Positions 1,773 to 64,000 of a stretch of 64,000 bases of DNA are shown here, one piece after another. The translations under genes were made by a program, and so were the position numbers. Where the stretch lies: assembly GCA_016744995.1 (NCBI GenBank), contig JADGDG010000002.1, positions 124,001 through 188,000 of the forward strand. The letters run 5' to 3'. The notes beneath the pieces were generated by a model. The model ran no database searches, had not been told where the DNA came from, and saw only the letters and a list, made by a program, of their open reading frames with translations. Numbering within the stretch: the stretch's first letter is position 1; every line of letters begins with the position of its first letter. The DNA is from Gammaproteobacteria bacterium. Its GTDB lineage: Bacteria; Pseudomonadota; Gammaproteobacteria; GRL18.

Positions 1773-1803
1773 AAAGACGTAATTTAATTTCGTCTTTTTT
1801 ATT
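1773..1803 (+). terminator. Small intrinsic terminator or attenuator before the ynb-like genes
   Basis: A 7-bp stem AAAGACG/CGTCTTT (1773-1779 and 1791-1797) with an 11-nt loop runs into a T-rich tract. It may end the flagellar transcript. It also lies downstream of the promoter at 1726-1754, so it could attenuate the ynb-like transcript. Confidence 0.5.
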
Positions 1804-1845: not shown

Positions 1846-2448
1846 ATGACACTTTATGATATCAAGCCGCAGTTTCAATCTTTTTTACGTCCATTAGTAA
1901 GGAGTCTTGCTGATAAAGGTATCACAGCTAATCAGGTTACCCTGTCTGCGGCAATCGGATCAGTTGCTATTGGTATATTGTTGTTTCTATTCCAAAAACA
2001 ACACACATTATTTCTAATACTCCCCTTCTGGATGTTTATACGCATGGCTCTTAATGCAATAGATGGGATGCTGGCAAATGAGTTTGGTCAAAAAAGTAAG
2101 CTTGGTGCTTATCTTAATGAAATATGTGATGTTATTTCTGATACTGCGCTGTTTATTCCTTTTGCTTTTATAGATCCCTTTCCTCTGTTTGCTGTTCTTC
2201 TGGTTATCTTTCTAGCCTTACTCAGTGAGTTTTCCGGTGTACTGGGAACAGCAATTGGTGCAACACGTCGTTATGACGGCCCAATAGGAAAAAGTGACAG
2301 AGCCCTCATCTTTGGTGCTATAGGTTTATGGTTGGGAGTCACAGGCTCTTTGCCGGGCTGGTTATTCTGGTTGATGCCAATTCTTGCCCTGCTTCTGTCA
2401 ATAACAATTTTTAACCGCATAAAACAGGCTTTAGTCGAAGTTAAATAA
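1846..2448 (+). CDS. ynbA: CDP-alcohol phosphatidyltransferase family protein, YnbA-like
   Basis: A 200-residue integral membrane protein with several hydrophobic helices. Enzymes of this family move a phosphatidyl group from CDP-diacylglycerol to an alcohol. The family motif is present but altered: in N-A-I-D-G-M-L-A-N...G-A-Y-L-N-E-I-C-D the first and third metal aspartates are Asn and the usual Arg is Asn. The start MTLYDIKPQFQS and the run RMALNAIDGMLA closely resemble E. coli YnbA as I remember it, which also has Asn at the two aspartate positions. The next gene's frame overlaps its stop. The alcohol acceptor is unknown and the changed motif means activity cannot be assumed. Confidence 0.75.
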   Translation: MTLYDIKPQFQSFLRPLVRSLADKGITANQVTLSAAIGSVAIGILLFLFQKQHTLFLILPFWMFIRMALNAIDGMLANEFGQKSKLGAYLNEICDVISDTALFIPFAFIDPFPLFAVLLVIFLALLSEFSGVLGTAIGATRRYDGPIGKSDRALIFGAIGLWLGVTGSLPGWLFWLMPILALLLSITIFNRIKQALVEVK

Positions 2449-2480
2449 TGCCCACACAATATAAACAAAGGATCTCTATT

Positions 2481-4319
2481 ATGAATGTAACGGCAACAAT
2501 AATAAATAACAGGTCGAATGATTTGGAGCTGGAAAAAAATTTTGCCCCAGACCTGTTATCCTCAAATAAGGATAAGCTGGATTCAGTTATTAAGCAAAAC
2601 TTCATAACACATGACAACACTGAGCTTTTTTATCGCTATTGGCCAGCAAATGGGAAGCCAAAAGGTGCAATCATTTTATTTCATCGGGGCCATGAACACT
2701 CTGGGCGTCTATCTCACATAGTCGATGAGTTAAATCTGTACAATTACGATTGCTTTGCCTGGGATGCCAGGGGACATGGTCATTCTCCCGGTGAGCGGGG
2801 TTTCAGCCCCAGTATGGCAACATCTGTTCGGGACATCCAGAGTTTCATCAAGCATATCTCCACCCGCTATGGATTTAAAGAACAGGATATGGCCATAATT
2901 GCACAAAGTGTCGGTGCGGTTCTGGTGTCTGCATGGGTTCATGATTATGCCCCTAAAATCCGTTGTATGATATTAGCTGCACCTGCATTTAAGGTCAAAT
3001 TATATATCCCTTTTGCACGAACCGGGATAAAAATCATGCACAAATTGGGTGGTAATTTTTTTGTTAATAGTTACGTAAAAGCAAAATATCTAACACATGA
3101 TCAACAAAGAATTCAATCATTTGAAACTGACCCTCTTATCTCAAGGGCTATATCATCGAATATTCTTTTATCACTCTATGATACAGCTGAGCGAATTATA
3201 AATGATGCCGCTGCCATTACAGTACCCACTCAGTTACTGATTTCTGGTTCAGACTGGGTTGTTCATCATAAGCCGCAACATAGATTTTATGAACTTCTCG
3301 GCAGTTCAGTGAAAGAAAAACATGTCTTTGAGGGTTTTTATCATGATACTTTAGGTGAATCCGGACGCAAACCTGCGATCGACAAAATACGCCAATTTAT
3401 TTTAAAAAATTTTTCTCAACCAGCCTCTATATCTGACCTGAGTAATGCTGATAAAAAAGGTTATACACAGGAAGAATCAAGACAATTAGCAACACCACTA
3501 TCACCTTACTCATTAAATAATCTCTATTGGATATTCACTCGACTGGCTCTTAAGGCTGGCGGATATTTTTCTAAAGGGATCAGACTGGGCCAGGAAACTG
3601 GGTTTGATTCTGGCAGTACCTTAGATTTTGTCTATCGCAACACACCTGAAAGTACATCAGCAATCGGTAAGCTTATAGATGCTAACTATTTAAATTCAGT
3701 TGGCTGGCGTGGTATCAGACAACGTAAAACCAATATTGAAGCACTTCTGCACCAGGCATCCGATACTTTGTGCATTAAAGGCAAACCTGTCAACATCTTA
3801 GATATTGCTTCTGGTCATGGGCGCTATGTATTAGAAGCCATTGAAAAAATGAAAAACAAGGCAGATTCAATTTTATTACGTGATTATAGTGACTTAAGTG
3901 TTCAGCAAGGAAAAGAATTAATTAAAGAAAAAAACTTAAATGACACCACTCATTTTATCAAAGTCAATGCATTTGATGCCTCAACTTACTCCCAACCTGA
4001 GCGGCCTGTCACACTAGGTATTGTTTCAGGCCTCTATGAATTATTTTCAGATAATGATCTCATCAGGCAGTCCTTGCAGGGTTTTTCTTCTGCAATACAA
4101 ACAGGTGGGTATCTTATCTACACTAATCAGCCATGGCACCCACAATTAGAAATGATAGCCCGAACTCTCACCAGTCATCGTAATGGCCAGCCATGGATAA
4201 TGCGTCGTCGAACTCAGACAGAAATGGATCAATTGGTTGAGTCCGCTGGTTTTACTAAAGTTGAACAGCGTATAGATGATGATGGGATCTTTACAGTTTC
4301 ATTGGCAGTGCGGAACTAA
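2481..4319 (+). CDS. ynbC: Alpha/beta hydrolase fused to SAM-dependent methyltransferase, YnbC-like
   Basis: About 612 residues in two halves. Residues 45-320 form an alpha/beta hydrolase of the monoacylglycerol-lipase type, with the FAWDARGHGHSPGERG strand-loop and nucleophile Ser about 143 in A-Q-S-V-G-A (Ala replaces the first Gly of GxSxG). Residues about 390-612 form a class I methyltransferase, with SAM-binding loop ILDIASGHGRY near residue 440. E. coli YnbC has the same hydrolase family, and the neighbours on both sides match YnbA and YnbD. I start at the ATG at 2481, which has AAAGGA 8 bp upstream, rather than the ATG at 2448 that overlaps the ynbA stop. Hydrolysis plus methylation of one lipid is plausible but not shown. 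Confidence 0.75.
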   Translation: MNVTATIINNRSNDLELEKNFAPDLLSSNKDKLDSVIKQNFITHDNTELFYRYWPANGKPKGAIILFHRGHEHSGRLSHIVDELNLYNYDCFAWDARGHGHSPGERGFSPSMATSVRDIQSFIKHISTRYGFKEQDMAIIAQSVGAVLVSAWVHDYAPKIRCMILAAPAFKVKLYIPFARTGIKIMHKLGGNFFVNSYVKAKYLTHDQQRIQSFETDPLISRAISSNILLSLYDTAERIINDAAAITVPTQLLISGSDWVVHHKPQHRFYELLGSSVKEKHVFEGFYHDTLGESGRKPAIDKIRQFILKNFSQPASISDLSNADKKGYTQEESRQLATPLSPYSLNNLYWIFTRLALKAGGYFSKGIRLGQETGFDSGSTLDFVYRNTPESTSAIGKLIDANYLNSVGWRGIRQRKTNIEALLHQASDTLCIKGKPVNILDIASGHGRYVLEAIEKMKNKADSILLRDYSDLSVQQGKELIKEKNLNDTTHFIKVNAFDASTYSQPERPVTLGIVSGLYELFSDNDLIRQSLQGFSSAIQTGGYLIYTNQPWHPQLEMIARTLTSHRNGQPWIMRRRTQTEMDQLVESAGFTKVEQRIDDDGIFTVSLAVRN

Positions 4320-4371
4320 TCAGTGTCTGTTTGTAATTTATTTCTTAAAGGTACTTGTTCTGGTAATTATT

Positions 4372-5763
4372 ATGAATAATTTTATTTCTCAAAGAATTGC
4401 CAGTCGTTCAAATTGGAAACAATCTATTTTATGGCTGCTGTTTCTCGGATCTTTCTTTTTTATCAGTTATAATTTTTCCAATTGGCTGGCATCACAGCAA
4501 GCAGAAGTATCTCATTTGTTTTTTTCCTGGGAGTATTCAATTCCTTTTGTTGCCTGGACTATTATCCCCTATTGGAGTATTGATATTCTATATGTCATCT
4601 CTCTATTTGTCTGCAATACAAAAAAAGAATTAAATATTCATGCAAAAAGACTGTTAACAGCACAAATCATTGCAAGCCTCTGTTTTATCTTATTTCCAAT
4701 GGGTTACACCTTCGAACGACCAGAAACCAGTGGCCTGTACGGCTATTTATTTCAAGCATTGGACGCCTTCGATCAGCCTTTTAACCAGGCTCCCTCATTG
4801 CACATTGCCTTATTAGTTATAATATGGGTTATTTACCTTCAACATTTACCCAAAGTTTTGCACTGGCCCTTTCATTTGTTATGTGTATTAATCGGGATTT
4901 CTGTATTAACCTGCTATCAACACCATTTTATTGATATACCAACTGGTGCACTTTTAGGCTGGTTTTGCATCTGGTTATGGCCGGATAATGGACAGCAAAT
5001 GTTAGTTCAAAGTCCACAAATAAAAGGCAGCAAAGGTAAGCACCATTTAAAAATCGCCTTATATTATTTAACTCCATCTGTAATTCTCAGCATTATAGCA
5101 ATATCACTACATGGCTGGGCTTTATGGCTTTTTTGGCCTGTATTTTCACTATTTATGGTGGCTTCATTTTATGCCTTCATCGGCACTGAAGGTTTTCAAA
5201 AATCTAAAAATGGAAATCTGAGTCTGGCAAGTCGATGGTTATTGTTTCCATATCTTTTTTCTACAACAATTAATTCTGCTTTATGGAGCCTCAGGCTGAA
5301 GATAAATAAGTCATCAAAAACAAAAACCACAAATAATATTATTGATAATTTGTGGCTGGGACATTTCCCTTCCATAAATGAAATCCAGGAGCAAAAATAC
5401 CAGACAGTCATTGATATGACAGCTGAAATGCAAAAACCAACAACAAATAAAAGCAAAGAGCTTAGCTGGCATACTTTAGCCAGTCTGGATTTATTACCAC
5501 CAGAAAAACAAAATTTGTTAAAAGCAGTTGATTTAATTGAATTACATATCAATGCAAAAAAAAATGAAACAATTTTAGTTAGCTGTGCTTTGGGTTACTC
5601 AAGAAGCGTTATAACTGTGGTTATATGGTTGGTTTTAAGCCTGCGGGTCAAAACAATTGAAGGGGCCATTGAACTGGTAAAAAAGAAGCACCCACAAGCT
5701 ATTATAAAAAGGAGTGATTATATTTATTTATCAACTATTATTAACCAGACAAAACAGTCTTAA
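4372..5763 (+). CDS. ynbD: Membrane PAP2 phosphatase fused to dual-specificity phosphatase, YnbD-like
   Basis: About 463 residues with many membrane helices in the first 310. The PAP2-type lipid phosphatase motifs are APSLH (near residue 140) and YQHHFIDIPTG. The cytoplasmic tail carries a cysteine-phosphatase loop C-A-L-G-Y-S-R-S (Cys about 405, Arg about 411, the CX5R motif). PAP2 plus DUSP is the YnbD layout, and WEYSIPF..WTIIPYWSIDILY agrees with it. An open frame extends upstream to 4276, but MNNFISQ at 4372 gives a normal N-terminus before the first helix; its ribosome site is weak. The last 33 bp overlap the convergent tatD. It probably dephosphorylates a lipid or lipid-head phosphate; the substrate is unknown. 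Confidence 0.75.
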   Translation: MNNFISQRIASRSNWKQSILWLLFLGSFFFISYNFSNWLASQQAEVSHLFFSWEYSIPFVAWTIIPYWSIDILYVISLFVCNTKKELNIHAKRLLTAQIIASLCFILFPMGYTFERPETSGLYGYLFQALDAFDQPFNQAPSLHIALLVIIWVIYLQHLPKVLHWPFHLLCVLIGISVLTCYQHHFIDIPTGALLGWFCIWLWPDNGQQMLVQSPQIKGSKGKHHLKIALYYLTPSVILSIIAISLHGWALWLFWPVFSLFMVASFYAFIGTEGFQKSKNGNLSLASRWLLFPYLFSTTINSALWSLRLKINKSSKTKTTNNIIDNLWLGHFPSINEIQEQKYQTVIDMTAEMQKPTTNKSKELSWHTLASLDLLPPEKQNLLKAVDLIELHINAKKNETILVSCALGYSRSVITVVIWLVLSLRVKTIEGAIELVKKKHPQAIIKRSDYIYLSTIINQTKQS

Positions 5764-8219: not shown

Positions 8220-8849
8220 TTAAACCTGAACAGTTAATTTTTCCATCACTACCGACAGTTGTTTATGAACATCTTCTATTGATGGTTGGGTATCTATTAC
8301 ATGAAAACGTTCTGGATTATCATTGGCCAGTTTAAGATAAGCTTCTCTGATCCGATTAAAAAAACTCAATTGTTCCTGTTCAAAACGGTCGGTTTCCCCT
8401 CGCTCTCGTACTCGTTGCATACCAATATCAACGGGAATATCCAGAAGTATTGTAGCATCGGGTCTTAAACTGCCTTGCACCCATTGCTCCAACTGAGCAA
8501 TTTTTTCCCAGGATAAGCCACGCCCTCCTCCCTGATAGGCAAAACTGGCATCCGTAAAGCGATCACTGAGAACCCACTTTCCCGCTTCAAGAGCAGGAAT
8601 GATTAGTTCATTTAAATGTTGAGAGCGGGCAGCAAACATTAATAATAATTCAGCATCATCACATAGACTGGTATTTGCCTTATCAAGTAAAAGATCACGA
8701 ATTTTTTCTGCAACCGGCGTCCCGCCAGGTTCACGAGTTGAAATGAATTCAATATTTTTTTTATTCAAATAATTCTGAATGAAATGAATATTGGTTGATT
8801 TTCCAGCACCTTCGGAGCCTTCAATCGTAATAAATTTACCTTTGTTCAT
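8220..8849 (-). CDS. tmk: Thymidylate kinase
   Basis: A 209-residue kinase that converts dTMP to dTDP. The P-loop is EGSEGAGKST, followed by the TMP-binding TREPGGTPVAEKIRDLLL, the DRFTDAS motif, the glycine-rich YQGGGRGL lid region and LLDIPVDIGMQR. Length is usual. It sits between mltG and holB in the conserved run and is probably co-transcribed with both. Confidence 0.97.
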   Translation of the reverse strand: MNKGKFITIEGSEGAGKSTNIHFIQNYLNKKNIEFISTREPGGTPVAEKIRDLLLDKANTSLCDDAELLLMFAARSQHLNELIIPALEAGKWVLSDRFTDASFAYQGGGRGLSWEKIAQLEQWVQGSLRPDATILLDIPVDIGMQRVRERGETDRFEQEQLSFFNRIREAYLKLANDNPERFHVIDTQPSIEDVHKQLSVVMEKLTVQV

Positions 8850-8876
8850 TGTGAGTACTCTATTAAACGGTTCTGT

Positions 8877-9917
8877 TTATTTTTTTCCACGGCCCTTAAG
8901 AATGTATTTTCTAACTGCACGATTATGGGCTTTAAGATTGTTGCTGAAGACATGTCCACCAGAACCATCTGCAACAAAATACAAGCTTTTTCCCTTATCA
9001 GGATGTAAGACTGCATGGATCGCCTCACGCCCTGGTATAGCAATGGGTGTTGGCGGCAGGCGTGATATCTGATAGGTATTATAAGCCGTTTTCTCATTAA
9101 TATCCCGACGACGGATATTACCTTTATAGCGTTCTCCCATACCATAGATGATGGTCGGATCAGATTGCAGGCGCATTTTTTTATTCATACGCCGGATGAA
9201 AACACCGGCAATTTTATCACGTTCATTACTGACACCCGATTCTTTTTCAACGATTGATGCCAGTATTAATGCTTCATAGGCTGTTTTAAGCGGTAGATCC
9301 TTATCTCTTAACTGCCACTCCTGTTCCAGTACACTCTGCATACCGTCATAGGCACGCTTAAGAAACTGGAAATCTGTCGTCCCTTTAGGGAACTTATATG
9401 TATCTGGATAAAGAAGACCTTCCAGATGACTATATTGGGAGTTTAACTGCTTCGATAACTGAGCAATAATTTCTTTATTATTAGCTTGTGCAAAAATTTC
9501 TGTAGCTTTCAAATTGGGATCATTTTTTATCCGTTCAAGTGCTTCATTAAATGTCCAGCCTTCAACTATTGTCAATGAATATTGGTTAACCACGCCAGAA
9601 ACAAAAAGATCGATAACATCAACAACTGTCATACCTGATTTAAGGGAATATTCACCGGCTTTTATTTTTGTTGCCTGTTTTGATAAACGGGCATAAAGTC
9701 GAAAGTATTCGGGGTGTTTTATCACTTTTGTCTGATTTAGCTTTTCTGCAATATTACGTACCCTGTCACCTTTATTCACTGTAAATATCAGATCTGAGGT
9801 GCCCTGTACGCTAATGGGAGTCTGTAGATAAATCTTATATTCATTCCAGTACCAGCCAGCAGCAAATGTTGCCAAAATAATGAACACAGCAATTAATTTA
9901 AAAAATTTTTTTATCAT
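8877..9917 (-). CDS. mltG: Endolytic murein transglycosylase MltG (YceG)
   Basis: A 346-residue inner-membrane protein with one N-terminal helix (residues 5-25) and a periplasmic YceG domain. It cleaves nascent glycan strands and is proposed to end their elongation. The catalytic Glu lies in LASIVEKESGV, followed by RRMNKKMRLQSDPTIIYG and TAYNTYQISRLPPTPIAIPGREAI-type motifs. The C-terminal FVADGSGGHVFS is typical. It lies between pabC and tmk. The region just upstream holds five copies of a 16-bp tandem repeat, so its leader is unusual. Confidence 0.96.
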   Translation of the reverse strand: MIKKFFKLIAVFIILATFAAGWYWNEYKIYLQTPISVQGTSDLIFTVNKGDRVRNIAEKLNQTKVIKHPEYFRLYARLSKQATKIKAGEYSLKSGMTVVDVIDLFVSGVVNQYSLTIVEGWTFNEALERIKNDPNLKATEIFAQANNKEIIAQLSKQLNSQYSHLEGLLYPDTYKFPKGTTDFQFLKRAYDGMQSVLEQEWQLRDKDLPLKTAYEALILASIVEKESGVSNERDKIAGVFIRRMNKKMRLQSDPTIIYGMGERYKGNIRRRDINEKTAYNTYQISRLPPTPIAIPGREAIHAVLHPDKGKSLYFVADGSGGHVFSNNLKAHNRAVRKYILKGRGKK

Positions 9918-51883: not shown

Positions 51884-54505
51884 TTAGTAATTTGGTTTAA
51901 TTTTATCTCTATCTATAACAGGCATATTAATTTTTTGTAGTAATCTTTTATTTAAGGACTCTTTTGCTATCCTTCGACTATTTTCTAATATTTTTTTCTG
52001 TTTTTCAGCTTTTTTTCTAAGACTTTTTAGGCCGCTATGATACCTTTCAAACTTCAAACCACTGGTAACAACTTCTATAGTTTGTTGATATCTTTTATTA
52101 AAAAACATTTGCCTGGCCTGATTATAGTAGGCCTGAGTTATCTTTAGTTTTGCTTCTCTGGCAATATAGGGATCATTCCTACCCAGGATACGTTTTAGAA
52201 CAGCATAGGTTCGGATAGCAGAGGTCATATCCTGAGCTTTAAGTTGAGAACTCAAAGAGGTTTTTAAACCTTTGATTTTTGCCAGGCGCTGCCGGGCCTT
52301 TTGTTTCACCTGTACAATATTTTCCAAAGCCACCAGGATAGCTTCTTCATCATCCATACCAAAAATGCCTCTGGTATAGTCTTTTGACTTATCAAGTAAA
52401 CGCCTTGCTTCAACCAAACGTTGTTTATCTCGCATTGAAACTGATTTTTTCAGATATAGGAAAGCCAGTGTTTGTTTTTTCTCATTCAACCATAAAGAAC
52501 GATTACCTAATTTATCATGTAATTGCGTGAATATAATGGTGACATTATTATCCCAACCTTGTGAAAATTTATGTTCATTAATAAGTTCAGATAGATTTTC
52601 TTTTAATTCACTTATATTTTGTGAAGACACCTTGATTCCAGTGTTTAATTCTTCAGGATCACCAGTCAAATAAATGTTACCATTATCCTGTGAATTTTCT
52701 AGTGATTTTGATTTATCGATAAGATTTTGCAATATAATATCATCAGGAAAAATGCTATATGCTTTAGCAAGCAATTGGTTTGCTTCATTAAATTCATGAT
52801 CTGATAATAATCGTTCTATGTGATCCTGGTAGATTAATAATAAACGCTGATCTTTCACCAAAGGATGATTATTTTCAATTTTTTTTACTTGATTAACAAG
52901 CTCTAATATCTGTTTATGTTCAACACTGGTACTGGGTAATTGTGAAAATTGAAGAATTTCTAATAACTCATTAAATTGACTATTGAGATAATTAATTTCT
53001 AAAAATTTATACTTTTCAAAAGATTCTGCCAATCGAGCTACCTGAGCAGAATCAGAATAATACAATTGTGAAACCCTTAATAACTCATAGGTTTCATTGT
53101 ATTTATTATTTTTATACGTCTCATCATTCATGGAAAATGCATTATTTAAAAAAGGACTCTTTAAGGTAATAATACTCTGCTCAACTAATTCCAACCATTG
53201 AGTCTTAATCTTCTCCAGAACATAAAGTCTGGTCTGATGATCAAGTGTGCTGATATGATGCTGTATTCTAGAAATTTCATCACTTACCACATCTGATTTT
53301 AAAGAATTGACCTGTTCAATAAATTTTGTCTGTTGATAAAAGTAATATTGTTCCTGTATTTCAGAAAAAAAAATAGTAGCAAAAACAATCATTATAATAA
53401 ATGAAGAAATTAATATCGGCAGCTTACTTTTCTTCTTAAAATTATAAGCATTGATAAACATTTCCATATTTTCAAAGCGATTTTTACCTTCAAATTCCAA
53501 CGCTTTTTTTATTGCCTGAGATTTCCTTTTTAATTGTGATTTATCCAGAGAGGCTATTTTCTTTAATTTAAACGATTTTTTTTTAGCTTTATCTGCAGGC
53601 AATCGTTTATAAGGGTGCTTCCCAGTTAATAGTTCATAAAACACACAGGCAATAGAATATATATCATCATGAGGTTCAGGAGCTTCCCCTTGAAGCATTT
53701 CCAAACTAGCATAGGTAGGTGTCAAAGCCCCAAGAGCAGTTGGATCAAACAGGGTTTTATCTTTTTTATTATTATCCTGTAACTGTTCATGAGAAATTTG
53801 ACAGGCACGGGCAATACCAAAGTCAAATATTTTTGCTACTTTAGTATCTGTAATAAAAATATTACTGGGTTTTAAATCTGAGTGAATAATACCATGCTGA
53901 TGTGCATATAGAAGCGCATTGGAAATAGCATTTATAATTATAGTGCCTTCTTCTTCAGTCATTCCCTGAGGATATTCTTCCGCAATCAACTCATCAAGTG
54001 GCTGCCCCTGCAACAATTCCATTGTCATATAAACAACATCACCATCACGATCAAAATCATGTACATTAACAATATTAGGGTGTGATAATTGTTGAGACTT
54101 TCTTGCTTCACGTTGTAAAGCAATCAATGATTCCGGATGATTTCGAAATTCTTCATTTAAAACTTTTACTGCAATATAAGGATTCTTGTCATGTGCTTCT
54201 TTCTTCCTCAGATCAATTGTCTTATATACTTTACCCATACCGCCAACACCAAGAACTTTCACAAGAACAAAGCGATTATTAATAACACTACCAATACTGA
54301 CTGTAATTTTTTTATTGCGAGTATTCTTCTTCTGTTTTTTTTTTGCATTTAAATTTACAGAAGCAATCTGAGCTACCTCCTGATTTTCTTTTAATGGCCT
54401 ATAAATAACTGTTTTATTATGTTCAGACTGAGCAATAATTGTTCGTTCATTCCCAGGAGGATTGGCAGCTTTTTTAATTTGTAGAACGGTTAAATTATCG
54501 GTCAT
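51884..54505 (-). CDS. ppkA: T6SS-associated Ser/Thr protein kinase (PpkA-like)
   Basis: An 873-residue membrane kinase. Residues 79-340 form the kinase: glycine loop LGVGGMGKVY, Lys114, H-S-D-L-K-P-S-N (Asp210) and DFG 228-230. The usual HRD Arg is Ser. A membrane helix follows at 361-381, then about 490 residues rich in helices and Lys/Gln that look like TPR or coiled-coil repeats. Unlike Pseudomonas PpkA there is no obvious von Willebrand domain. The N-terminal tail carries T22 in TIIAQS and T32 in TVIYRP, which resemble motifs in the TssL tail. It lies 11 bp after the phosphatase gene and probably phosphorylates TssL and/or itself for the FHA protein. Confidence 0.85.
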   Translation of the reverse strand: MTDNLTVLQIKKAANPPGNERTIIAQSEHNKTVIYRPLKENQEVAQIASVNLNAKKKQKKNTRNKKITVSIGSVINNRFVLVKVLGVGGMGKVYKTIDLRKKEAHDKNPYIAVKVLNEEFRNHPESLIALQREARKSQQLSHPNIVNVHDFDRDGDVVYMTMELLQGQPLDELIAEEYPQGMTEEEGTIIINAISNALLYAHQHGIIHSDLKPSNIFITDTKVAKIFDFGIARACQISHEQLQDNNKKDKTLFDPTALGALTPTYASLEMLQGEAPEPHDDIYSIACVFYELLTGKHPYKRLPADKAKKKSFKLKKIASLDKSQLKRKSQAIKKALEFEGKNRFENMEMFINAYNFKKKSKLPILISSFIIMIVFATIFFSEIQEQYYFYQQTKFIEQVNSLKSDVVSDEISRIQHHISTLDHQTRLYVLEKIKTQWLELVEQSIITLKSPFLNNAFSMNDETYKNNKYNETYELLRVSQLYYSDSAQVARLAESFEKYKFLEINYLNSQFNELLEILQFSQLPSTSVEHKQILELVNQVKKIENNHPLVKDQRLLLIYQDHIERLLSDHEFNEANQLLAKAYSIFPDDIILQNLIDKSKSLENSQDNGNIYLTGDPEELNTGIKVSSQNISELKENLSELINEHKFSQGWDNNVTIIFTQLHDKLGNRSLWLNEKKQTLAFLYLKKSVSMRDKQRLVEARRLLDKSKDYTRGIFGMDDEEAILVALENIVQVKQKARQRLAKIKGLKTSLSSQLKAQDMTSAIRTYAVLKRILGRNDPYIAREAKLKITQAYYNQARQMFFNKRYQQTIEVVTSGLKFERYHSGLKSLRKKAEKQKKILENSRRIAKESLNKRLLQKINMPVIDRDKIKPNY

Positions 54506-54516
54506 AATAAGTGCTA

Positions 54517-55230
54517 TTAGTGTTTCTTTATAACAATGATAGAAATATTGTCGGAAGCATCACTAAGCAAGGCCTCTCCCAGTAGTTTATTGGCAATATG
54601 ATCTGTTTTATCTTCTTTTAGACTTGATATGATGACATCACTGGCAATTTCACTATATAAACCATCGCTGCATAATAGTAATTTATCTCCTGATTGAATT
54701 TTAAACTGATTGATATCAACCTTTAATTCTTTATTGATACCAATTGCACGAGTAATAACATTAGATTTTGGATGTGACTGAGCCTGCACTAATGATAACT
54801 GCCCACTATCAACCATCTCTTGTACTAAAGAATGATCCTTAGTGATTTGATAGAGTTTATTATTTCTAAAAATATACAAACGACTATCACCAACCCATAA
54901 GCAGTAACAAATATCATCAAAAATATAAGCAATAACAACAGTACTACCAGAAATAGTATTATCATTATCTATTAGTGAGCCTGAATTAATTTTTTCATTT
55001 ACTTCTATCAATGTCGCTTCTATTTTATCAATAGAGCTTTCGAGATTATTACCTTCTAATTTTAGCTGCATTAATTCATTAACAATCGACTGACTAGCCT
55101 GATCACCTGCTGAATGACCACCCATACCATCAGCAACTGCAAACAAGTTGAATTCAGGGTGAGTTAATATGGAATCTTCATTATGCTTTCTGACATAACC
55201 TTTATGTGTTCTCTGAGCACTGCTAATCAT
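54517..55230 (-). CDS. pppA: T6SS PP2C-family protein phosphatase (PppA-like)
   Basis: A 237-residue metal-dependent Ser/Thr phosphatase that opposes the T6SS kinase. Motifs are in order: RKHNEDSIL, AVADGMGGHSAGDQAS (two metal Asp), CLWVGDSRLYIF, LLLCSDGLYSEI and ASDNISIIVI. All metal-binding acids are present. It starts 2 bp after tagF and is followed by the kinase, the common tagF-pppA-ppkA order. Confidence 0.93.
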   Translation of the reverse strand: MISSAQRTHKGYVRKHNEDSILTHPEFNLFAVADGMGGHSAGDQASQSIVNELMQLKLEGNNLESSIDKIEATLIEVNEKINSGSLIDNDNTISGSTVVIAYIFDDICYCLWVGDSRLYIFRNNKLYQITKDHSLVQEMVDSGQLSLVQAQSHPKSNVITRAIGINKELKVDINQFKIQSGDKLLLCSDGLYSEIASDVIISSLKEDKTDHIANKLLGEALLSDASDNISIIVIKKH

Positions 55231-55232
55231 AT

Positions 55233-55994
55233 CTAAACACCTATTAAAGCTGGTGTATCACCGACAACAAAAAGTGACTTGAGATTATGCCATACTTCCC
55301 GATCCCAATTACCATCAAGAAATGAAGAAAAACCATCCATCTCTGGCAAACCTTCACAAACCAGAAATGAGGGTTTTATGTCTTCAGAACCAGAAGTCCA
55401 CCATAAACTATAGGCAGAAAATGCCTGTTCAATAAAAAAATGGCTGATAGCAGGAAATGAACTCAGAGGATTGGCATTAACTGGATCCATAGAAAAATGA
55501 CCCTGAAAGCGTTTTTCTTTATGAATTTCATTCAATTTCTCATTGCTATTAATTCGACTGATAACAGGAGCACCTAATTCAATAAGACTTGCTTCTAAAT
55601 CATCTAATTGAAAATTATCATCCAGAGTTGATAAAGCAATCTCTTCTGCCTGTTCCAGCCAATGATGACATTCATCAATGAGTGCAACTGGTTTTACTGC
55701 TTCTGTAATGTGTGAAGCGATAGTCAGAGGAAAATATCGTCCCACTCTATCAACACTTGGAATAACAACCCCGACGAAAGAATTTTCACCACAATTACCA
55801 TCTGATAAAATAAATTTCCATACCGGTGCCACCAGAAAATAATCCAGCCATTTATCACCTAATTGTTCCTGACTGGTTGCCATTGCTTTTTGTAACCAGC
55901 TATCCCAGGGATCAATAAATGTTCTGGGAAGATTTCGTGAGAGAAAATCCCCATGAGTGGGTAATTTTCCATAAAATCCATTTAGTTTACTCAT
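55233..55994 (-). CDS. tagF: T6SS accessory protein TagF
   Basis: A 253-residue cytoplasmic protein that in other systems represses T6SS firing after translation. The N-terminal signature is GFYGKLPTHGDFLSRNLPRTFIDPWDSWLQ, followed by PVWKFILSDG and VGVVIPSVDRVGRYFPLT, all typical. It stays separate from PppA here; in some species the two are fused. It lies between tssM and pppA. Confidence 0.93.
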   Translation of the reverse strand: MSKLNGFYGKLPTHGDFLSRNLPRTFIDPWDSWLQKAMATSQEQLGDKWLDYFLVAPVWKFILSDGNCGENSFVGVVIPSVDRVGRYFPLTIASHITEAVKPVALIDECHHWLEQAEEIALSTLDDNFQLDDLEASLIELGAPVISRINSNEKLNEIHKEKRFQGHFSMDPVNANPLSSFPAISHFFIEQAFSAYSLWWTSGSEDIKPSFLVCEGLPEMDGFSSFLDGNWDREVWHNLKSLFVVGDTPALIGV

Positions 55995-56024
55995 ATAAAT
56001 TTATAACCTCTGCTACAACTTTCA

Positions 56025-59000
56025 TCAATTGAGTGATTCAGGTGCTCTATAGCGCTTTAACAAATTATGACTAAAGGGATTCTTGACACTATTGGCAATC
56101 AGTTCAAATTTAGCCTTCTTCCCTTCTAATATATAATCAACAATAAAGTGATCATTTAATTTGGTACGCTTAAGTTCATAATTATCCATAATTCTAAAAA
56201 ATGCCCAGGGACCATTTTCTTTGTAGGCAACCCGATCACCATGGAGATCTTCAAATATTATTTTAGCTTCATTGTGATCAGTATTTCCCGGCCACGTCAT
56301 CTTGCTGGGTATTAAAGGGCCATGTTGGTAAACCACTTTTTGTTTCCCTAGTCGCAGTTCAAAGCGAGCAATATTTGAGTCAAGAAACATTGGCTTTAAT
56401 GAATAATTAATTTTTGGAAAGTCTTTATCTTCCTTAAAAAAAACCTTGCGTATATTTTCAGCTCGTTGAAATTGTTTAAGTGCCTTATGACTGATCGCCA
56501 AACTAAATCCTTCCACCTTTTTTAATGTCCAGGGGATCCGTCCTGTGTTAACAAAGTCTTTCAAATACGTATCAAAAAAGCTTGATTCAATACCATCTGG
56601 CCTAAAATATTCAGTAAAATCTACCAAAGAAGCTTCATTATTTGCTTTTGAATGCAATGGGTAACGATTTTTCATACTGCGCTTATAAAAACCCATAACG
56701 CTGGACTGATAAACATTATTCAGAAACTGATTGCTCTGCGCAAGAACCAGCCCCCATGAATTACGAGAAATTGATTTCAACCAGCTTTTAAGCGGTTCTG
56801 GTGATCTGGAGGCTAATAATTTCAGCTTGCCAACCGGATCCTGTGCGCCGCCTTTTAGTCGTGCTTTTGCCAGTTGATAAGCCGTTTCACCATCATCCAT
56901 AGTATTAGCCAGATTATTCAGATAAGCCTGTAGTTCGGCCAAAGCCATCATTATTTCATTGAGATGTGCAGGTCTGTTATTTTGCTGTTCAATGGTTTTA
57001 TTGATATCAAAAAACTGTTTCTCAACAATATCAGTAGGCTTATCTGGCAGGTTTATAAGTTTGCGATCATTAACCCGTCTAACCATCCTAATCATTGAAC
57101 CCGTTCGACCTGTTACCTTTCGGGTTAGTTCATTAGTTAACCCCTTGTTCTCTTCTAGTATTTTTCCATTAATTGGCAGTTGACCAAGACGGGTATTTTC
57201 AGCAACATTTTCAATCACACCACGAAACGGTGAATAAGGTCCAGTGATCTGATTCAGGGCATTAATCGCCTGATTAACCGTAGCAAAATGATTGATTGAT
57301 AACTCATTTATGGCACTGTTCCAATAACGGGCATAATCTTCAAGATACAATGATTTTACCTTATCACTGAATAAGGTAATATCTGATAGAGTAAAATCAC
57401 CATTTTTTGTACCAAGAACCCAATTTTCTTCTGAGATTTCTTTAACATATAAAAAACTATCTTTCAGAAAAATATTTTTATAACCATCATAAGTATACAA
57501 ATAGGGAATAGAACGAGTAGTACCTGAAAATACCATATTCATTTCAGGACCTACCTGTGCTGAGAAAGTAAATGCTTCATTGTTGGCATTTTTTGCTTCC
57601 AGCTTTATACGATTATAAATCTGTTGATGTAAAGGCACTTTTTTTAACACCGCTCGGGCCTTTTCAACCAGTGCATGATTAATTCTTATGGTGCCGAAAT
57701 CTGAAGTAAAGAGATTGCCAAGATGTTTTTTTAATTGTGATTGTAATTCTGCCTGGCCTTTCATGTGAGTGGTCCAATCCAGTTCCATCCATTGTTCAAC
57801 AAATTTATTTTCAAAATGTTTGGGCAAGCCCATCATAAGATAAGCTTTCAATGCTTCAAATAAATAGTCTGGTTCATTAATACTCGAACGTATCTGTTGT
57901 TCCAGACGATGTTTCAGAGCAGGCATAAAGAATTGTTTAAGTTGTTCTGTATAAGCAAGAGAGATAAAATCATTAAAATTATTACCCTGATACAAACCCA
58001 ATTGCATGGATATTGGCACTGATTGTGCGGACGGAAATATTTCATTCAGTGAATTAAGATACTGTAATTGAGTATTAATAGAATCAAAACGAATGCGATT
58101 TAAATTAAGCAAGTCATCATTGTATTGAGTTAATTGTTCATCAACTTTTTTAATATTAAGTTCATTTAATGTAAAGCTGGTAGACCATCCCAAAGCACTG
58201 ACCGCAGCAATAAGAATGGCACTTGCATATGAAATTCGCTGTAGCCAGAGGATTTTTTTTTCAAAACGACGATTGACTCCAACAAGGTTAGCTTCGGTAA
58301 AAATCACCTGTTGTAACAAGTTTTTAATAAAATAGCTTTTTCCTTTAGTTTGCATGGCAGACAATGCCTGTCTATCAATATCAAAAGAATCCATCAGGTT
58401 GCCCATAATACGGTCAATGGGAGTCCCTTCCTGTGTGCCACTGGTTAAATAAACACCACGCAAATTGGGGCTTTCATGAAAGCGGGAAGAGGAGAAGGTC
58501 TGTCCTATAAAGCTATTAACACCCTCTCTGATAGCTTCTAACTGCACAGGAAATTCAACTATTTTTCCTCGACGCTGAGGATCTCGTTCATAATTCAAGC
58601 GCCATAACAGGCGCTCATTAATATTCTGCAGTAATTGTTCAAATTGCTCACTAAATAAATAACCTGGAGTTTGTTCCTGATCAATATCATAATTTTCTGG
58701 AAAGGTCATTCCCCAGACCTGTTCCCGTTCATCACGTCCCAGATCATCAAAAAATTCTGAAAAACCAGCAACCAGATCACTTTTTGTTATTAATAAATAA
58801 ACCGGGAATTGAATATTAAGCTGTTCTTGAAGCTCTAAAAGTCGACTGCGAATGGCATGAATGTGGGTGTTTTTTTCCTGTTCTGTCTGAGTCAGAATAT
58901 CCTGAAGACTAATTGCGACCATAACACCATTAATGGGTTGTCTTTTACGATGTCTTTTTAACAACTTTAAAAAACTACCCCAGGCAGCTGAATCATTTTC

Positions 59001-59582
59001 AGCATGACTATCCTGAGTGGTATAACGACCAGCCGTATCAATTAAAACAGCTTCATCAGAAAACCACCAGTCACAATTTCTTGTACCTCCAACTCCTCTG
59101 ACAGCTTCATGACCATATTTTTCAGCCAGAGGGAATCTTAGTCCAGAATTCACTAATGCCGTTGTTTTACCTGAACCAGGTGGTCCGATAATGACATACC
59201 AGGGTAGATCATAAATATACTGCTTACCATGATTGTACTTGCTTGAGTGCTTAAGGATATGCATAGCATCATCAAAGCGTTCACTCAGGACTTTAACTTC
59301 TTCATCTGATACATGCTGATCATTAGTATGACCATCTTGTTTCAAACCTTCAATTAGCTGCTCATTATTTTTCTTCGCCTGTGCCTGAATACGAAGATTA
59401 TTTAAGCCCCACAGTAAAAGTAACACCATAATCGAAATCAGACGTGTGATTTCAGATCCCAGAGGCACTTTACCTGCAATAGCCACAAGAGGACCCAAAA
59501 ACCAGATCAGAATTGACAAAGCAATGACACCAAGAAGTGTTACAAACCATTTCTTAGTAAATATCTCCTTAATGGTTTTCAT
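56025..59582 (-). CDS. tssM: T6SS membrane protein TssM (IcmF)
   Basis: An 1185-residue inner-membrane protein that forms the trans-envelope complex with TssL and TssJ. Two N-terminal helices (WFVTLLGVIALSILIWFLG and the next) precede a cytoplasmic NTPase domain with Walker A GPPGSGKTTALVNSG and VLIDTAGRYT. A third helix lies near residue 440 (ISYASAILIAAVSALGW), followed by the large periplasmic part. Walker A is intact, which is not true of all TssM. Its ATG overlaps the tssL stop by 4 bp. Confidence 0.96.
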   Translation of the reverse strand: MKTIKEIFTKKWFVTLLGVIALSILIWFLGPLVAIAGKVPLGSEITRLISIMVLLLLWGLNNLRIQAQAKKNNEQLIEGLKQDGHTNDQHVSDEEVKVLSERFDDAMHILKHSSKYNHGKQYIYDLPWYVIIGPPGSGKTTALVNSGLRFPLAEKYGHEAVRGVGGTRNCDWWFSDEAVLIDTAGRYTTQDSHAENDSAAWGSFLKLLKRHRKRQPINGVMVAISLQDILTQTEQEKNTHIHAIRSRLLELQEQLNIQFPVYLLITKSDLVAGFSEFFDDLGRDEREQVWGMTFPENYDIDQEQTPGYLFSEQFEQLLQNINERLLWRLNYERDPQRRGKIVEFPVQLEAIREGVNSFIGQTFSSSRFHESPNLRGVYLTSGTQEGTPIDRIMGNLMDSFDIDRQALSAMQTKGKSYFIKNLLQQVIFTEANLVGVNRRFEKKILWLQRISYASAILIAAVSALGWSTSFTLNELNIKKVDEQLTQYNDDLLNLNRIRFDSINTQLQYLNSLNEIFPSAQSVPISMQLGLYQGNNFNDFISLAYTEQLKQFFMPALKHRLEQQIRSSINEPDYLFEALKAYLMMGLPKHFENKFVEQWMELDWTTHMKGQAELQSQLKKHLGNLFTSDFGTIRINHALVEKARAVLKKVPLHQQIYNRIKLEAKNANNEAFTFSAQVGPEMNMVFSGTTRSIPYLYTYDGYKNIFLKDSFLYVKEISEENWVLGTKNGDFTLSDITLFSDKVKSLYLEDYARYWNSAINELSINHFATVNQAINALNQITGPYSPFRGVIENVAENTRLGQLPINGKILEENKGLTNELTRKVTGRTGSMIRMVRRVNDRKLINLPDKPTDIVEKQFFDINKTIEQQNNRPAHLNEIMMALAELQAYLNNLANTMDDGETAYQLAKARLKGGAQDPVGKLKLLASRSPEPLKSWLKSISRNSWGLVLAQSNQFLNNVYQSSVMGFYKRSMKNRYPLHSKANNEASLVDFTEYFRPDGIESSFFDTYLKDFVNTGRIPWTLKKVEGFSLAISHKALKQFQRAENIRKVFFKEDKDFPKINYSLKPMFLDSNIARFELRLGKQKVVYQHGPLIPSKMTWPGNTDHNEAKIIFEDLHGDRVAYKENGPWAFFRIMDNYELKRTKLNDHFIVDYILEGKKAKFELIANSVKNPFSHNLLKRYRAPESLN

Positions 59583-60688
59583 AAATTACTCCATAAAGTC
59601 TGAAATTGTTTCCCATTTATATTTAAACTGGATTCCTGCTGTTGTCTATTCCTTTGCGGTGGTTTAACAAGACGTTCCATTTTAGGAAATTGAGAAGTTG
59701 TTGACTGATAGCTTTCATCTACTTCTTCATTAGATTCTAAGTGCTTTGATGGAGAGACAACAGCAGGACCCAGTTTTATAATTTCACTAATAACAGGAGT
59801 TGATGATTGATCGAGCATATAAGTAAAACTGGAAAACATGGCCAGCAAAATAACTGCTGATAAAGCACCTACGACCCATAGAGGGACATAACGAATTAAT
59901 GCCCCTCGTTTATCGGTGACTCCACGCCAATTATTTGATAACTCTTTATTAAAATCATTTTTTAAACTTCGCAACTGACGATATAGATCTTCTCGTAAGT
60001 GTTCAACCTCACCAAAGCCGTTATCAAGCACACGGTATTTCCCCTGAAATCCAAGGCTCATACAGATATACATTAATTCAAGAATATCTAAATTTTTAAC
60101 AGGCTCTTTCAGCAATCGCTCTAACAGCAAGTAGAATTTTTCCCCTCCCCAGGTTTCCCCGTGAAACATGCTGAGAAGACTTTGCTGGCTCCAGTCACTT
60201 TCCTGTCCCCATGGTGTACTGGCCACTATTTCATCTAAGGAAGTACAAAGAATGTATCGAGCCTGAAGAATTTTGTCATTGGCAATCCCTGAACGACCGC
60301 TATTAATTTCAAACTGCTTAATTTCATCCTGCAATTTGTGCTTCAACTGAGCTACATTTTTATGCATTATAGAATTAGATAATTTAATCATCAGTGATAA
60401 TAATGTTGATGCATTGTGTACCAGTTCATTAAGAGTATTGAATGAAATAGTTTCATCTGCAACCATTTTTGTCAGAGGACGGTTATCCGTCATAATATAT
60501 CTGGATGACTGTTTATGTATTTGTTTTGAGCTAGATTGATGATTTGTTTGCTGATTATTCCGATAACTAATTATAGTTTGATCGGATGAACCTGAGCTTG
60601 ACTGAGATAATGATTGACGCTTTCCACCCGGTCTGGGTCTTATTACGGTGTTATCGTTAGGAAAACGAATCACTGTTTTATCATCCAT
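59579..60688 (-). CDS. tssL: T6SS membrane protein TssL (DotU)
   Basis: A 369-residue protein with a long polar tail (1-75), a cytoplasmic DotU domain (ILCTSLDEIVASTPWG, MFHGETWGGEKFY, CMSLGFQGKYRV) and a single C-terminal helix (VPLWVVGALSAVILLAMFS). About 90 periplasmic residues follow without an OmpA domain. The tail holds three similar motifs: T5 in TVIRFP, T14 in TVIRPRP and T38 in TIISYR. In Agrobacterium, TssL Thr14 is phosphorylated by PpkA and then bound by Fha, so these threonines are strong candidates. A 13-bp repeat lies at its start codon. Confidence 0.94.
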   Translation of the reverse strand: MDDKTVIRFPNDNTVIRPRPGGKRQSLSQSSSGSSDQTIISYRNNQQTNHQSSSKQIHKQSSRYIMTDNRPLTKMVADETISFNTLNELVHNASTLLSLMIKLSNSIMHKNVAQLKHKLQDEIKQFEINSGRSGIANDKILQARYILCTSLDEIVASTPWGQESDWSQQSLLSMFHGETWGGEKFYLLLERLLKEPVKNLDILELMYICMSLGFQGKYRVLDNGFGEVEHLREDLYRQLRSLKNDFNKELSNNWRGVTDKRGALIRYVPLWVVGALSAVILLAMFSSFTYMLDQSSTPVISEIIKLGPAVVSPSKHLESNEEVDESYQSTTSQFPKMERLVKPPQRNRQQQESSLNINGKQFQTLWSNL

Positions 60689-60714
60689 AATTATTATCCA
60701 TAATTATTATCCAT
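60685..60714. repeat. 13-bp direct repeat across the tssL start region
   Basis: CCATAATTATTAT occurs at 60685 and 60698, followed by a partial third copy. The first copy contains the complement of the tssL ATG. The repeats place extra ATGG sequences just upstream of the start. Confidence 0.7.
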
Positions 60715-60752
60715 TATTTCTTTAATACAAACCAATTAACATATAAAACTTA

Positions 60753-62084
60753 CTATTTAATCGCCCAAAATTCCATTTCAAGATCTGGGAAGTTACCACT
60801 GACATGAATGGCAAAACCACCTGAGTTTGCTAATTGAGACCAGGTTTCCGATTGACTGTCTAATTCAAAATAAGTAAAACCCGAATGATATGGAATTTGA
60901 CGAGGTGCAATGGGTAAAACCTGTAATTTAACACCGGGTAATTGCAAATTAACTAAATCACGGATGTGTTCAACAGGTCCTATTTTAACCTGCGTTGGGA
61001 AACTACTGCGGACTTTTTCATTTGATATACTTGCTTTTACGGCAATAATAAAATGAGCAGTTTTAAGAAGATTTTTATCATTAATTGTTGCGACACTAAT
61101 GCCATAATTTCTATCTTGAAGAGTAATTTGAATGGCATTTTGTTCAAGAACCATACTCAGAGATTGACGGATCCCGGACATAATTTTAGCAAAACAATCC
61201 GTTGGTTTTTCATGATCATAATTGACTGAAAATTCAGGACGTCTGGCAGTAATAGTAAAAGTTGATAATTCTCCATATAGAGAGCTTAAGTGTTGAAATA
61301 AATATTCTGGATGTAAAATATTCTTATTTAATAAATGTCTAAACAATGATTCACTTTTATTAACTAATTGTAATAACAGGAAATCGGTAATATCTGAAGT
61401 ACCTCCTTTACCTGAAGCTGTGATCCGACCAGCAACAGATTCAGAGCGATGTGATAATAAACTAATAACTTCTTTATGATAATTTTCAATATTGAGAGAG
61501 GCTGAGCAATTTATGGTGGTTGGTATAAAGTCATCATCAATGATAATACTTTTATCTGCTCGAGACTCAACGATTTTGCATAAGCTTAATGCAATATATT
61601 CACCTTCTAATTCACTTGCGATCATTATTTTAAACTTAAGAGAACCTAAATCAATTCGTGCAACTGAATCAATCCCAATATTATTATCACGCACATCATG
61701 TTCTTCAACAAAAAAACGAGAATTATTTGAATCTTTTGATAATTTTCTGTCTGCTTCAGGCATTCCTTGTGCGATAACAGGAAGTACAAGATACACAATT
61801 TCATCTTTAATTTTAGTAGAAATATTTAAAAACAGAGGAAGAATATCAGTATTTTTAATTGAAAAGACGGTGCCATCCGGCATGACACCTTCACAGTGAT
61901 TGACAACTATTTTACCAAGACCTAAATGTTGTTCATCAATTGAAAGTTTCTTTATTCCCCATGCATAATCATTAAAAAAAACAATGCTTTTATTTCTTTG
62001 ATCCGTCATATAACGATCATGCTGCTGAAAATGCTGTGGTCTTAAAAACATTCCTTCAGACCAGATTACTTTGCTATTGAACAC
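60753..62084 (-). CDS. tssK: T6SS baseplate protein TssK
   Basis: A 443-residue baseplate component that joins the baseplate to the TssL-TssM membrane complex. The N-terminus VIWSEGMFLRPQHFQQHDRYM is the family signature. SLYGELSTFT near residue 275, and the C-terminal PRQIPYHSGFTYFELD and GFAIHVSGNFPDLEMEFWAI, also match. It lies between tssJ and tssL with short gaps, the usual tssJ-K-L order. Confidence 0.96.
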   Translation of the reverse strand: MFNSKVIWSEGMFLRPQHFQQHDRYMTDQRNKSIVFFNDYAWGIKKLSIDEQHLGLGKIVVNHCEGVMPDGTVFSIKNTDILPLFLNISTKIKDEIVYLVLPVIAQGMPEADRKLSKDSNNSRFFVEEHDVRDNNIGIDSVARIDLGSLKFKIMIASELEGEYIALSLCKIVESRADKSIIIDDDFIPTTINCSASLNIENYHKEVISLLSHRSESVAGRITASGKGGTSDITDFLLLQLVNKSESLFRHLLNKNILHPEYLFQHLSSLYGELSTFTITARRPEFSVNYDHEKPTDCFAKIMSGIRQSLSMVLEQNAIQITLQDRNYGISVATINDKNLLKTAHFIIAVKASISNEKVRSSFPTQVKIGPVEHIRDLVNLQLPGVKLQVLPIAPRQIPYHSGFTYFELDSQSETWSQLANSGGFAIHVSGNFPDLEMEFWAIK

Positions 62085-62146
62085 AAAAAACTCCCTTAAA
62101 ATTACCCATGTATTAATTTATATTAGTTAACATTTGTTCCAAATAT

Positions 62147-62656
62147 TTATTCATGTTCATCTAATAGAATACTGTCTGCAGTAAGTTTTAAAGAGAGATA
62201 ATTATGAGAACCCCGTTCTAAAGGTAAGACCAACCTCCACTTTGCTTGTCCTATTTCCTGATAGGCAACCATAACACCAATAAAATTTGCTCTCTCATTA
62301 AATTCTAACTGAGCTTCAAACCGTTCATTGGGTTCAAAGTTTTTTTCCTCTCTTCTAAGAAAGTCAGCTCCTAATATTTCTTTTTCATTTTGATATAGAG
62401 CAGCAAAATCTGCACTTTCAAAATTTGATGGAGAAACTAACGAATAAAGACGGACAACAACTGGTGAAGGACGACCATTTTGGTCAGGATTCAAGTCATA
62501 AGTGGACACAACTTTTAAATCGAGTTTTGTTTTTGTCGATAGAAAGTTTTTCGGATCAAATACTTCACGTAAGACATCACTGGAAGTACAAGAAATTAGA
62601 AATTGACTACTAAAAACCAGAAGAAATAAAGATATAATTTTTTGTCTATAAGTCAC
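62147..62656 (-). CDS. tssJ: T6SS outer-membrane lipoprotein TssJ
   Basis: A 169-residue lipoprotein. The signal sequence ends in lipobox LISC (Cys23). The mature domain has LDLKVVSTYDLNPDQNGRPSPVVVRLYSL, then ADFAALYQNEKEILGADFL and FIGVMVAYQEI, a transthyretin-like fold typical of TssJ. It anchors the TssM periplasmic domain to the outer membrane. Confidence 0.95.
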   Translation of the reverse strand: MTYRQKIISLFLLVFSSQFLISCTSSDVLREVFDPKNFLSTKTKLDLKVVSTYDLNPDQNGRPSPVVVRLYSLVSPSNFESADFAALYQNEKEILGADFLRREEKNFEPNERFEAQLEFNERANFIGVMVAYQEIGQAKWRLVLPLERGSHNYLSLKLTADSILLDEHE

Positions 62657-62695
62657 AACAATTCCTTTTGTTATAATAAGTTGATTTATTATGTA

Positions 62696-64000
62696 TTAAG
62701 CATTAACTTTTAACTTTGCCTGACGAATATCATCAATCTGGCGCTCATAAGCTTTAGAAAACTCACAAGAAAAAAATTCCGTAAAAACATCATCTTCCTC
62801 TTTAATCTCAACATATAGATCAGTAAAGGCATCCCAATAACGTGATTTTTTACTGCCCAACCCCAGAGATTTTAATTTATTAGCATTATCAGTAATTTTT
62901 TCAGGTGAAAATTTTTCAAGCAAAGAATTTAAAGCTGATTTCATCCCGGCCATCACACCAAGTTGATGCTCTTGCAACTCCACAAATGATTCCTTAATTG
63001 CCTGCTCAGAATTAAGATAACCTGATAAAGGATTAACTAACATATAATGAACCAGTTGTTCGTAATTAATACAAAACTTAAGAGGATTGTTTTCTTGTGA
63101 TTGTATGGTTGTCATTGATAAACGAAACTCATTTTTTAAATGTGCTCGTGAGATCATTGTTTTCATAAGGCCTGACATAGAATTTTTTGCAATATGAGCA
63201 ATATTTTCCATTACTTCTGGTAATTGCTCAGCTGAGATGTCATTCGGATCAAGTCCCATTGTTATCAATAAAGTAGAAATGGCTTCAGAATGCTGTTCGG
63301 GGTTGTGCTTACTAGAAGATTTAAGGTGTGTGTATTTTTCTTGAACTTGTTCGTGAGGATGAGTTTCTCGCGCCTGAATATTGGTTTTAACTTCAATTAT
63401 ATTTTTAACAACAGATGCAGAATTTTTTATCTGCTTATTTGAGTTTTCAAAATCTTTTTTAAAATCCTCAAAATTCCCAACATGATTTAGTTCTTCCTCA
63501 TGTTCAACTTTATTTGGTATAACCGACGGAGGAAATTCATTCTTTTCTTCAATAGTTATTTGAGTAGTCTTATCCAACCAGTTTTCTGGTATTGCATTGG
63601 GTAAGTCAAAATAAGACTGAGTGGATGAAATCGGATCCAATACAGAATTAATTGGATCACATTCTGATAAAATGTCATTTCCTACAACACATCCTGGTGT
63701 AGAAACCTCAGTAAAATGGCTTAAAGGATCAATATGCTGATTTATTTCCTGGGGTGCACTGGAAGAAAAGACGGCAGCTGATTGTGTTGCAACCAAAGTT
63801 GCCTGAATTGAATACTGACCCAGTTGAAAAACATCGCCATTACGGATAATGTGTGTTTTGTCACCTAGAGCATATTGATCTTTATTGATAAAAAGACCAT
63901 TAGTACTGGTATCTATAATAAGAAAATGGTTATTTTCAAAGTAAACTGAAACATGTTGCCCAGAGATGAGGCGTTCAGGATCATCGATCAACCAGTCATT
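62696..64000 (-). CDS. tagH: T6SS FHA-domain protein (TagH/Fha-like), 5' end outside window
   Basis: At least 434 residues; the frame stays open to base 64000, so the N-terminus is missing. The FHA fold is partly seen: NDWLIDDPERLISGQHVSVYFEN, then DTSTNGLFIN, which keeps the Ser/His and Asn that read phosphothreonine. A long polar linker (about 90-230) follows, then a helical C-terminal T6SS domain with SLLEKFSPEKI and RYWDAFTDLYVEIKEEDDVFTEFFSCEFSKAYERQI. FHA proteins of this type bind phosphorylated TssL or kinase. The TTG at 63991 is not a believable start because it cuts the domain. Confidence 0.92.
   Translation of the reverse strand, partial: NDWLIDDPERLISGQHVSVYFENNHFLIIDTSTNGLFINKDQYALGDKTHIIRNGDVFQLGQYSIQATLVATQSAAVFSSSAPQEINQHIDPLSHFTEVSTPGCVVGNDILSECDPINSVLDPISSTQSYFDLPNAIPENWLDKTTQITIEEKNEFPPSVIPNKVEHEEELNHVGNFEDFKKDFENSNKQIKNSASVVKNIIEVKTNIQARETHPHEQVQEKYTHLKSSSKHNPEQHSEAISTLLITMGLDPNDISAEQLPEVMENIAHIAKNSMSGLMKTMISRAHLKNEFRLSMTTIQSQENNPLKFCINYEQLVHYMLVNPLSGYLNSEQAIKESFVELQEHQLGVMAGMKSALNSLLEKFSPEKITDNANKLKSLGLGSKKSRYWDAFTDLYVEIKEEDDVFTEFFSCEFSKAYERQIDDIRQAKLKVNA

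Follow-up and report, generated by a model that had tools for sequence, protein, structure and literature searches.

A split variant of the arc1/ynb phospholipid cluster in a gammaproteobacterial genome

Where does a lipid pathway of the E. coli ynbABCD type obtain its activated lipid when ynbB is missing from the cluster? The question is raised by three adjacent genes, ynbA, ynbC and ynbD, that form a co-directional row at 1846-5763 (+) of the window, the whole 64,000-nt stretch analyzed here (contig JADGDG010000002.1, positions 124,001-188,000 of the forward strand, GCA_016744995.1). The original prediction, for which only the window was available, read the cluster as lacking ynbB. Indeed, no ynbB lies between ynbA and ynbC, but a full-length ynbB is present elsewhere in the genome. 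The cluster represents a variant of the arc1/ynb pathway whose genes are split between two sites, and no arc1D was found. We consider it reasonably probable that the three window genes are the arc1ABC half of a split phospholipid pathway with a role in membrane integrity under lipase attack.

The three window genes and a distant ynbB-plsC pair

The arc1A homologue ynbA (1846..2448, +) encodes a CDP-alcohol phosphotransferase of the phosphatidylinositol-phosphate synthase (PIPS)/archaetidylinositol-phosphate synthase (AIPS) branch. It matches PF01066 (2e-7) and, by profile, the PIPS structures (7.5e-11), as well as the NCBIfam archaetidylinositol-phosphate synthase model at 4.6e-20, under the cut-off of that model. 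The arc1B homologue ynbC (2481..4319, +) encodes a Hydrolase_4 and Methyltransf_20 fusion (Pfam, 2.8e-69 and 4.6e-136), and the arc1C homologue ynbD (4372..5763, +) a PAP2 and DSPc fusion (7.7e-8 and 8.4e-9). Their reading frames are open from 2448 and 4276, respectively; judged from the sequence, the likelier starts are ATG 2481, behind AAAGGA, and ATG 4372. Identity to the E. coli proteins is 48% for YnbA, 54-55% for YnbC and 34% for YnbD. These identities and the Pfam placements bear out the original prediction on the gene row and its domain make-up of CDP-alcohol phosphatidyltransferase, hydrolase-methyltransferase and PAP2-dual-specificity phosphatase (DUSP).

Structure matches were obtained for the YnbC hydrolase domain and the YnbD DUSP domain. 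The N-terminal domain of YnbC is monoacylglycerol-lipase-like, with an intact Ser/Asp/His triad and a predicted structure matching monoglyceride lipases at a Z score of about 30; its C-terminal domain is an S-adenosylmethionine-dependent methyltransferase (Methyltransf_20). The C-terminal DUSP domain of YnbD keeps the catalytic Cys, Arg and Asp and matches DUSPs including PTPMT1 at Z scores of 16-17.

Two CTP_transf_1 genes were found in the source genome, a 5.18 Mb draft of 65 contigs that is 95.8% complete. One encodes a 311-aa, full-length YnbB (738841-739773 of contig C35 of genome G000, corresponding to 8839-9774, -, of fetched stretch L025). This protein shares 45% identity with E. coli YnbB along its entire length, whereas the cdsA product aligns to the C-terminal half of YnbB only. 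It also conserves the YnbB-type block S..KR....KD.G..PGHGGxLDRxDS, and is thus full-length YnbB-like rather than CdsA-like. The other gene is cdsA and stands apart, in its common gene order frr-ispU-cdsA-dxr-rseP-bamA. The distant ynbB overlaps a gene for a PlsC-type acyltransferase by 14 bases; both products keep their conserved catalytic motifs, and all five frames (ynbA, ynbC, ynbD, ynbB and plsC) are intact. A DUF4202 gene (L025 9800-10402, -) lies directly upstream of the pair across a 25-base gap and is possibly co-transcribed with it. The pair is on C35 and ynbA-ynbC-ynbD on C12; if the two contigs belong to one replicon, their lengths put the two parts at least ~437 kb from each other. 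The genes therefore do not form the single operon typical of arc1.

Scanning genomes for YnbC yielded 434 relatives; for the best 80, the locus was examined together with flanks of up to 10 kb. The fetched stretch contained ynbB in 71 of the 80, and 8 of the remaining 9 ended at a contig end, leaving L043 as the only locus truly without a nearby ynbB. The genome of L043 keeps ynbB-plsC on a different contig, beside a second CDP-alcohol phosphotransferase (clade A2, described below). Similarly, in the L030 genome plsC-ynbB is on another contig and ynbA on a third. The split seen in the window is thus not unique, and ynbB was kept in both cases. The apparent absence of an adjoining ynbB at L115 and L092 probably reflects contig ends, and these loci were not taken as splits. 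Most often, ynbA-ynbC-ynbD-X come first, and plsC-ynbB or ynbB-plsC follow. X, a protein of ~150 aa (for example, L142 10733-11185 and L036 3297-3758), has hydrophobic stretches, matches no Pfam family and is conserved at a position between ynbD and plsC/ynbB in most operons of the arc1 type. The five genes of the source genome all have their nearest relatives at the same small set of gammaproteobacterial loci (65-69% identity for YnbA, 65-70% for YnbC, 65-69% for YnbB and 56-63% for PlsC), where the genes form one operon ordered ynbA-ynbC-ynbD-X-ynbB-plsC.

Among 369 genomes of the class, YnbB (E<=1e-40) was detected in 8 of the 10 that have YnbC and in 19 of the 359 others (Fisher p 1e-8, uncorrected for species relatedness); the remaining two YnbC genomes have a divergent ynbB adjoining ynbC. 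Three relatives that share the genus or family but lack YnbC had no YnbB, only CdsA-level matches. In several gammaproteobacterial families, ynbA-ynbB pairs occur without ynbC (ynbB at L147-L149, L151 and L153-L157; ynbA partners at L169, L174, L177, L179-L183 and L185), and this pair may be the core module. A gene absent from its neighborhood in a window need not mean an absent step.

Correspondence with the arc1 operon and a proposed pathway

The P. aeruginosa genes PA2541-PA2536, arc1A-F, form a Gac/Rsm-controlled operon required for surviving attack by the type VI secretion system (T6SS), and four of its products resemble enzymes of phosphatidylglycerol synthesis; the main text of that study does not mention the ynb genes (PMC8926400). 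In a 2025 study, full resistance to V. cholerae and A. baylyi lipase effectors needed arc1A (PMC12663445). The junction part of the published PA2541 deletion primer served as a search pattern. Earlier primer searches in one Pseudomonas group had not found PA2541, but across 398 genomes of the family the pattern had a single match, located where a ynbA homologue begins, and a second published primer matched the end of the same gene. The operon at this site reads ynbA, ynbC, ynbD, X, plsC, ynbB. The primer match and this order together identify arc1A as ynbA, arc1B as ynbC, arc1C as ynbD, arc1D as X, arc1E as plsC and arc1F as ynbB. By this correspondence, the source genome holds contiguous orthologues of arc1A, arc1B and arc1C, as well as arc1E (plsC) and arc1F (ynbB).

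Our literature search found no paper joining E. coli ynbABCD to Arc1, and the papers reporting ynbA in expression or screening data (PMC13031359, PMC10134817) are silent on its function. The correspondence connects the orphan ynbABCD operon of E. coli with the Arc1 defense cluster of P. aeruginosa. If the two are one pathway, the search for the Arc1 lipid can be carried out with the tractable genes of E. coli K-12.

In the pathway that we propose, probably a second route to phospholipid that is complete in itself, the PlsC-type acyltransferase would form phosphatidic acid, which YnbB would convert with CTP into CDP-diacylglycerol for a dedicated branch, apart from CdsA. Such a branch fits the observation that E. 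coli YnbB does not substitute for CdsA (PMC6362211). YnbA would then use a phosphorylated alcohol, probably not inositol phosphate, as the acceptor for the phosphatidyl group, and the DUSP domain of YnbD would act as PTPMT1 does on phosphatidylglycerol-phosphate and strip the phosphate. Finally, YnbC may trim an acyl chain, methylate the product, or both. The outcome would be a specialized lipid, or a form of lipid repair, that preserves the membrane against the phospholipase toxins of other bacteria; this anti-lipase role is proposed by analogy with arc1 in P. aeruginosa.

The YnbA active site and alternative readings

The most surprising point is the active-site signature of YnbA, which is common to the whole family. 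In the canonical signature, the aspartates D1-D3 bind metal and D4 is the catalytic base (PMC4634129). The full set of eight signature residues (D1xxD2GxxAR...GxxxD3xxxD4) is not found in YnbA, the window protein having the variant N70-x2-D73-G-x2-A-N78-x8-G-x3-N91-E-x2-D95-x3-D99. D1 and D3 are replaced by asparagines, N70 and N91, in all 88-89 YnbA family members readable at those columns; Asp occupies both positions in the three other family members of the source genome and in the aligned solved relatives. D73 (D2) and the catalytic base D95 (D4) are kept, and E92, D99 and E128 are fixed, D99 being found in PIPS as well. R152 and R191 are also invariant; their counterparts in the alignment with RsPIPS are its acceptor-phosphate arginines, R153 and R191 (PMC4634129).

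From one alignment, the acceptor of YnbA is probably not inositol phosphate, because the residues aligned near the inositol contacts differ (E128, G131). We considered a phosphatidylinositol pathway, the nearest relatives being phosphatidylinositol-phosphate synthases, and rejected it on the same residues; inositol-1-phosphate synthase was not searched for.

A second clade, A2 (NL[FLM]DGMVA...N[ED]xPDRxxD; L137 237-905, L186, L187 and L189-L193), has the same two Asp-to-Asn changes and adjoins ynbB in most of its genomes. In a class-wide YnbA search, the form with both asparagines (YnbA and A2) accompanied ynbB, and two weak matches in genomes without ynbB had both aspartates; in G301, YnbA of the asparagine form occurs with a divergent ynbB only. 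We tentatively propose that YnbA/Arc1A and A2 may be a separate branch within the CDP-alcohol phosphotransferases (NxxDG...GxxxN[E/D]xxDxxxD) travelling with YnbB-type cytidylyltransferases. The pair would use altered metal chemistry to make and consume a CDP-lipid of its own, leading to an undescribed bacterial phospholipid that serves in resistance to the lipases of rivals. The double asparagine provides a signature for a branch of orphan lipid enzymes.

Several observations weigh against the reading as a split arc1-type pathway. The phosphotransferase signature is non-canonical, which weakens a simple reading of YnbA chemistry, and the signature Arg is Asn in the window protein (R78N), the sole such case among 89. 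A profile of nine X proteins found no arc1D in the source genome (E 0.1), an absence that the draft state of the assembly leaves in small doubt, and the linkage of the arc1-type genes is broken. Similarity ranks correlate moderately from gene to gene (0.1-0.5), and no RsmA-type GGA motif was seen by eye in the short leader that separates the terminator-like hairpin from ynbA. The order of the chemistry is taken from homology alone. No member of the pathway has a known product, a point on which the original prediction holds.

The asparagines at D1 and D3, where the solved relatives and the other family members of the genome have Asp, could also mean that YnbA is a lipid-binding or regulatory pseudoenzyme or carries out another chemistry. 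However, D2, D4 and the acceptor arginines are kept, and the fixed E92 and D99 imply a site under strong selection; we regard this explanation as possible, though doubtful. We give similar weight to lysophospholipid handling with no new head group, in which YnbC lipase and PlsC would clear or re-acylate lysolipids produced by attacking phospholipases while the CDP steps rebuild ordinary phospholipid. The lipase-like domain of YnbC is consistent with such a role, as is the aid that Arc1A, Arc3A and Aas each give against lipase effectors (PMC12663445). It leaves a dedicated methyltransferase and a DUSP unexplained, however, and in P. aeruginosa lysophospholipid build-up was tied to Arc3 rather than Arc1, whose defect was not relieved by the loss of any single effector (PMC8926400). 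Arc3A (PF10101) was not found in the source genome.

Decay of the pathway in the source genome would account for the split operon, the missing arc1D and the exceptional R78N, but the five intact frames and the otherwise kept catalytic residues make it unlikely. Less likely still is that YnbB works for the glycolipid MPIase and not in a YnbA pathway. MPIase is raised when E. coli YnbB, no substitute for CdsA, is overproduced, yet it is unchanged in a ynbB single deletion (PMC6362211), and YnbB co-occurs and clusters with YnbA of the asparagine type. The model of the original prediction, in which the pathway no longer has a ynbB and relies on CdsA for CDP-diacylglycerol, agrees with the lack of an adjoining ynbB in the window and with the presence of cdsA in the genome. 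We consider it very improbable: the genome has a full-length ynbB beside plsC, and genomes with YnbC retain a ynbB even if unlinked. Supply from general metabolism is therefore unsupported, an orthologous ynbB and its partner plsC being present, though unlinked. A split arc1/ynb pathway remains the reading that we prefer.

Genomic surroundings and comparison with known systems

Upstream of ynbA are FliK-type and FlhB C-terminal (FlhX-type) genes (85-1671, +, by Pfam). Between these flagellar-type genes and ynbA, a terminator-like hairpin followed by a T run (AAAGACG...CGTCTTTTTT; 1773..1800, +) was read by eye and is unscored. Downstream, the end of ynbD is overlapped by an opposite-strand gene encoding a TatD-type nuclease. 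The GC content of the cluster (0.378) matches that of the window (0.375, the median for stretches of this size), and we rejected a recent foreign insertion on this ground; membership in a known anti-phage defense family was also rejected, no PADLOC match being found. Part of a T6SS lies at 51884-63991 (-) of the window, with genes for a PpkA-type kinase, a PP2C phosphatase, TagF, IcmF/TssM, TssK and FHA proteins. The kinase, phosphatase, TagF and FHA genes are ~46-58 kb from ynbD, on the same contig; one gene for TssC lies 8.5 kb past the end of the window, and contig C30 has another. The source organism may itself be a participant in T6SS competition, for which the T6SS on the same contig is circumstantial evidence.

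P. aeruginosa arc1A-F encodes orthologous YnbA, YnbC, YnbD, PlsC and YnbB, and the order ynbA-ynbC-ynbD is common to both genomes; in the source genome, however, the plsC-ynbB part is unlinked and in the order ynbB-plsC, and arc1D was not found. The E. coli K-12 cluster (ynbA-ynbB-ynbC-ynbD) has the same A, C and D proteins and no arc1D, and YnbB is encoded in both genomes. It differs in having ynbB between ynbA and ynbC and no plsC, whereas here ynbB is elsewhere, with plsC. For the individual enzymes, the solved structures nearest to YnbA in sequence are those of RsPIPS and MtPIPS (PDB 5d91 and 6h53), with which its acceptor-phosphate arginines align; it differs from them in the asparagines at D1 and D3 and in having E128 and G131 in the vicinity of the inositol-contact Ser/Lys of PIPS. 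Similarly, the C-terminal domain of YnbD shares its fold with PTPMT1, the mitochondrial phosphatidylglycerol-phosphate phosphatase (3rgq; Z 16.9, rmsd 2.3, 143 residues aligned), in a tie with other DUSPs. YnbD differs from PTPMT1 in its fused PAP2 membrane domain, and its sequence does not favor PTPMT1 over other DUSPs.

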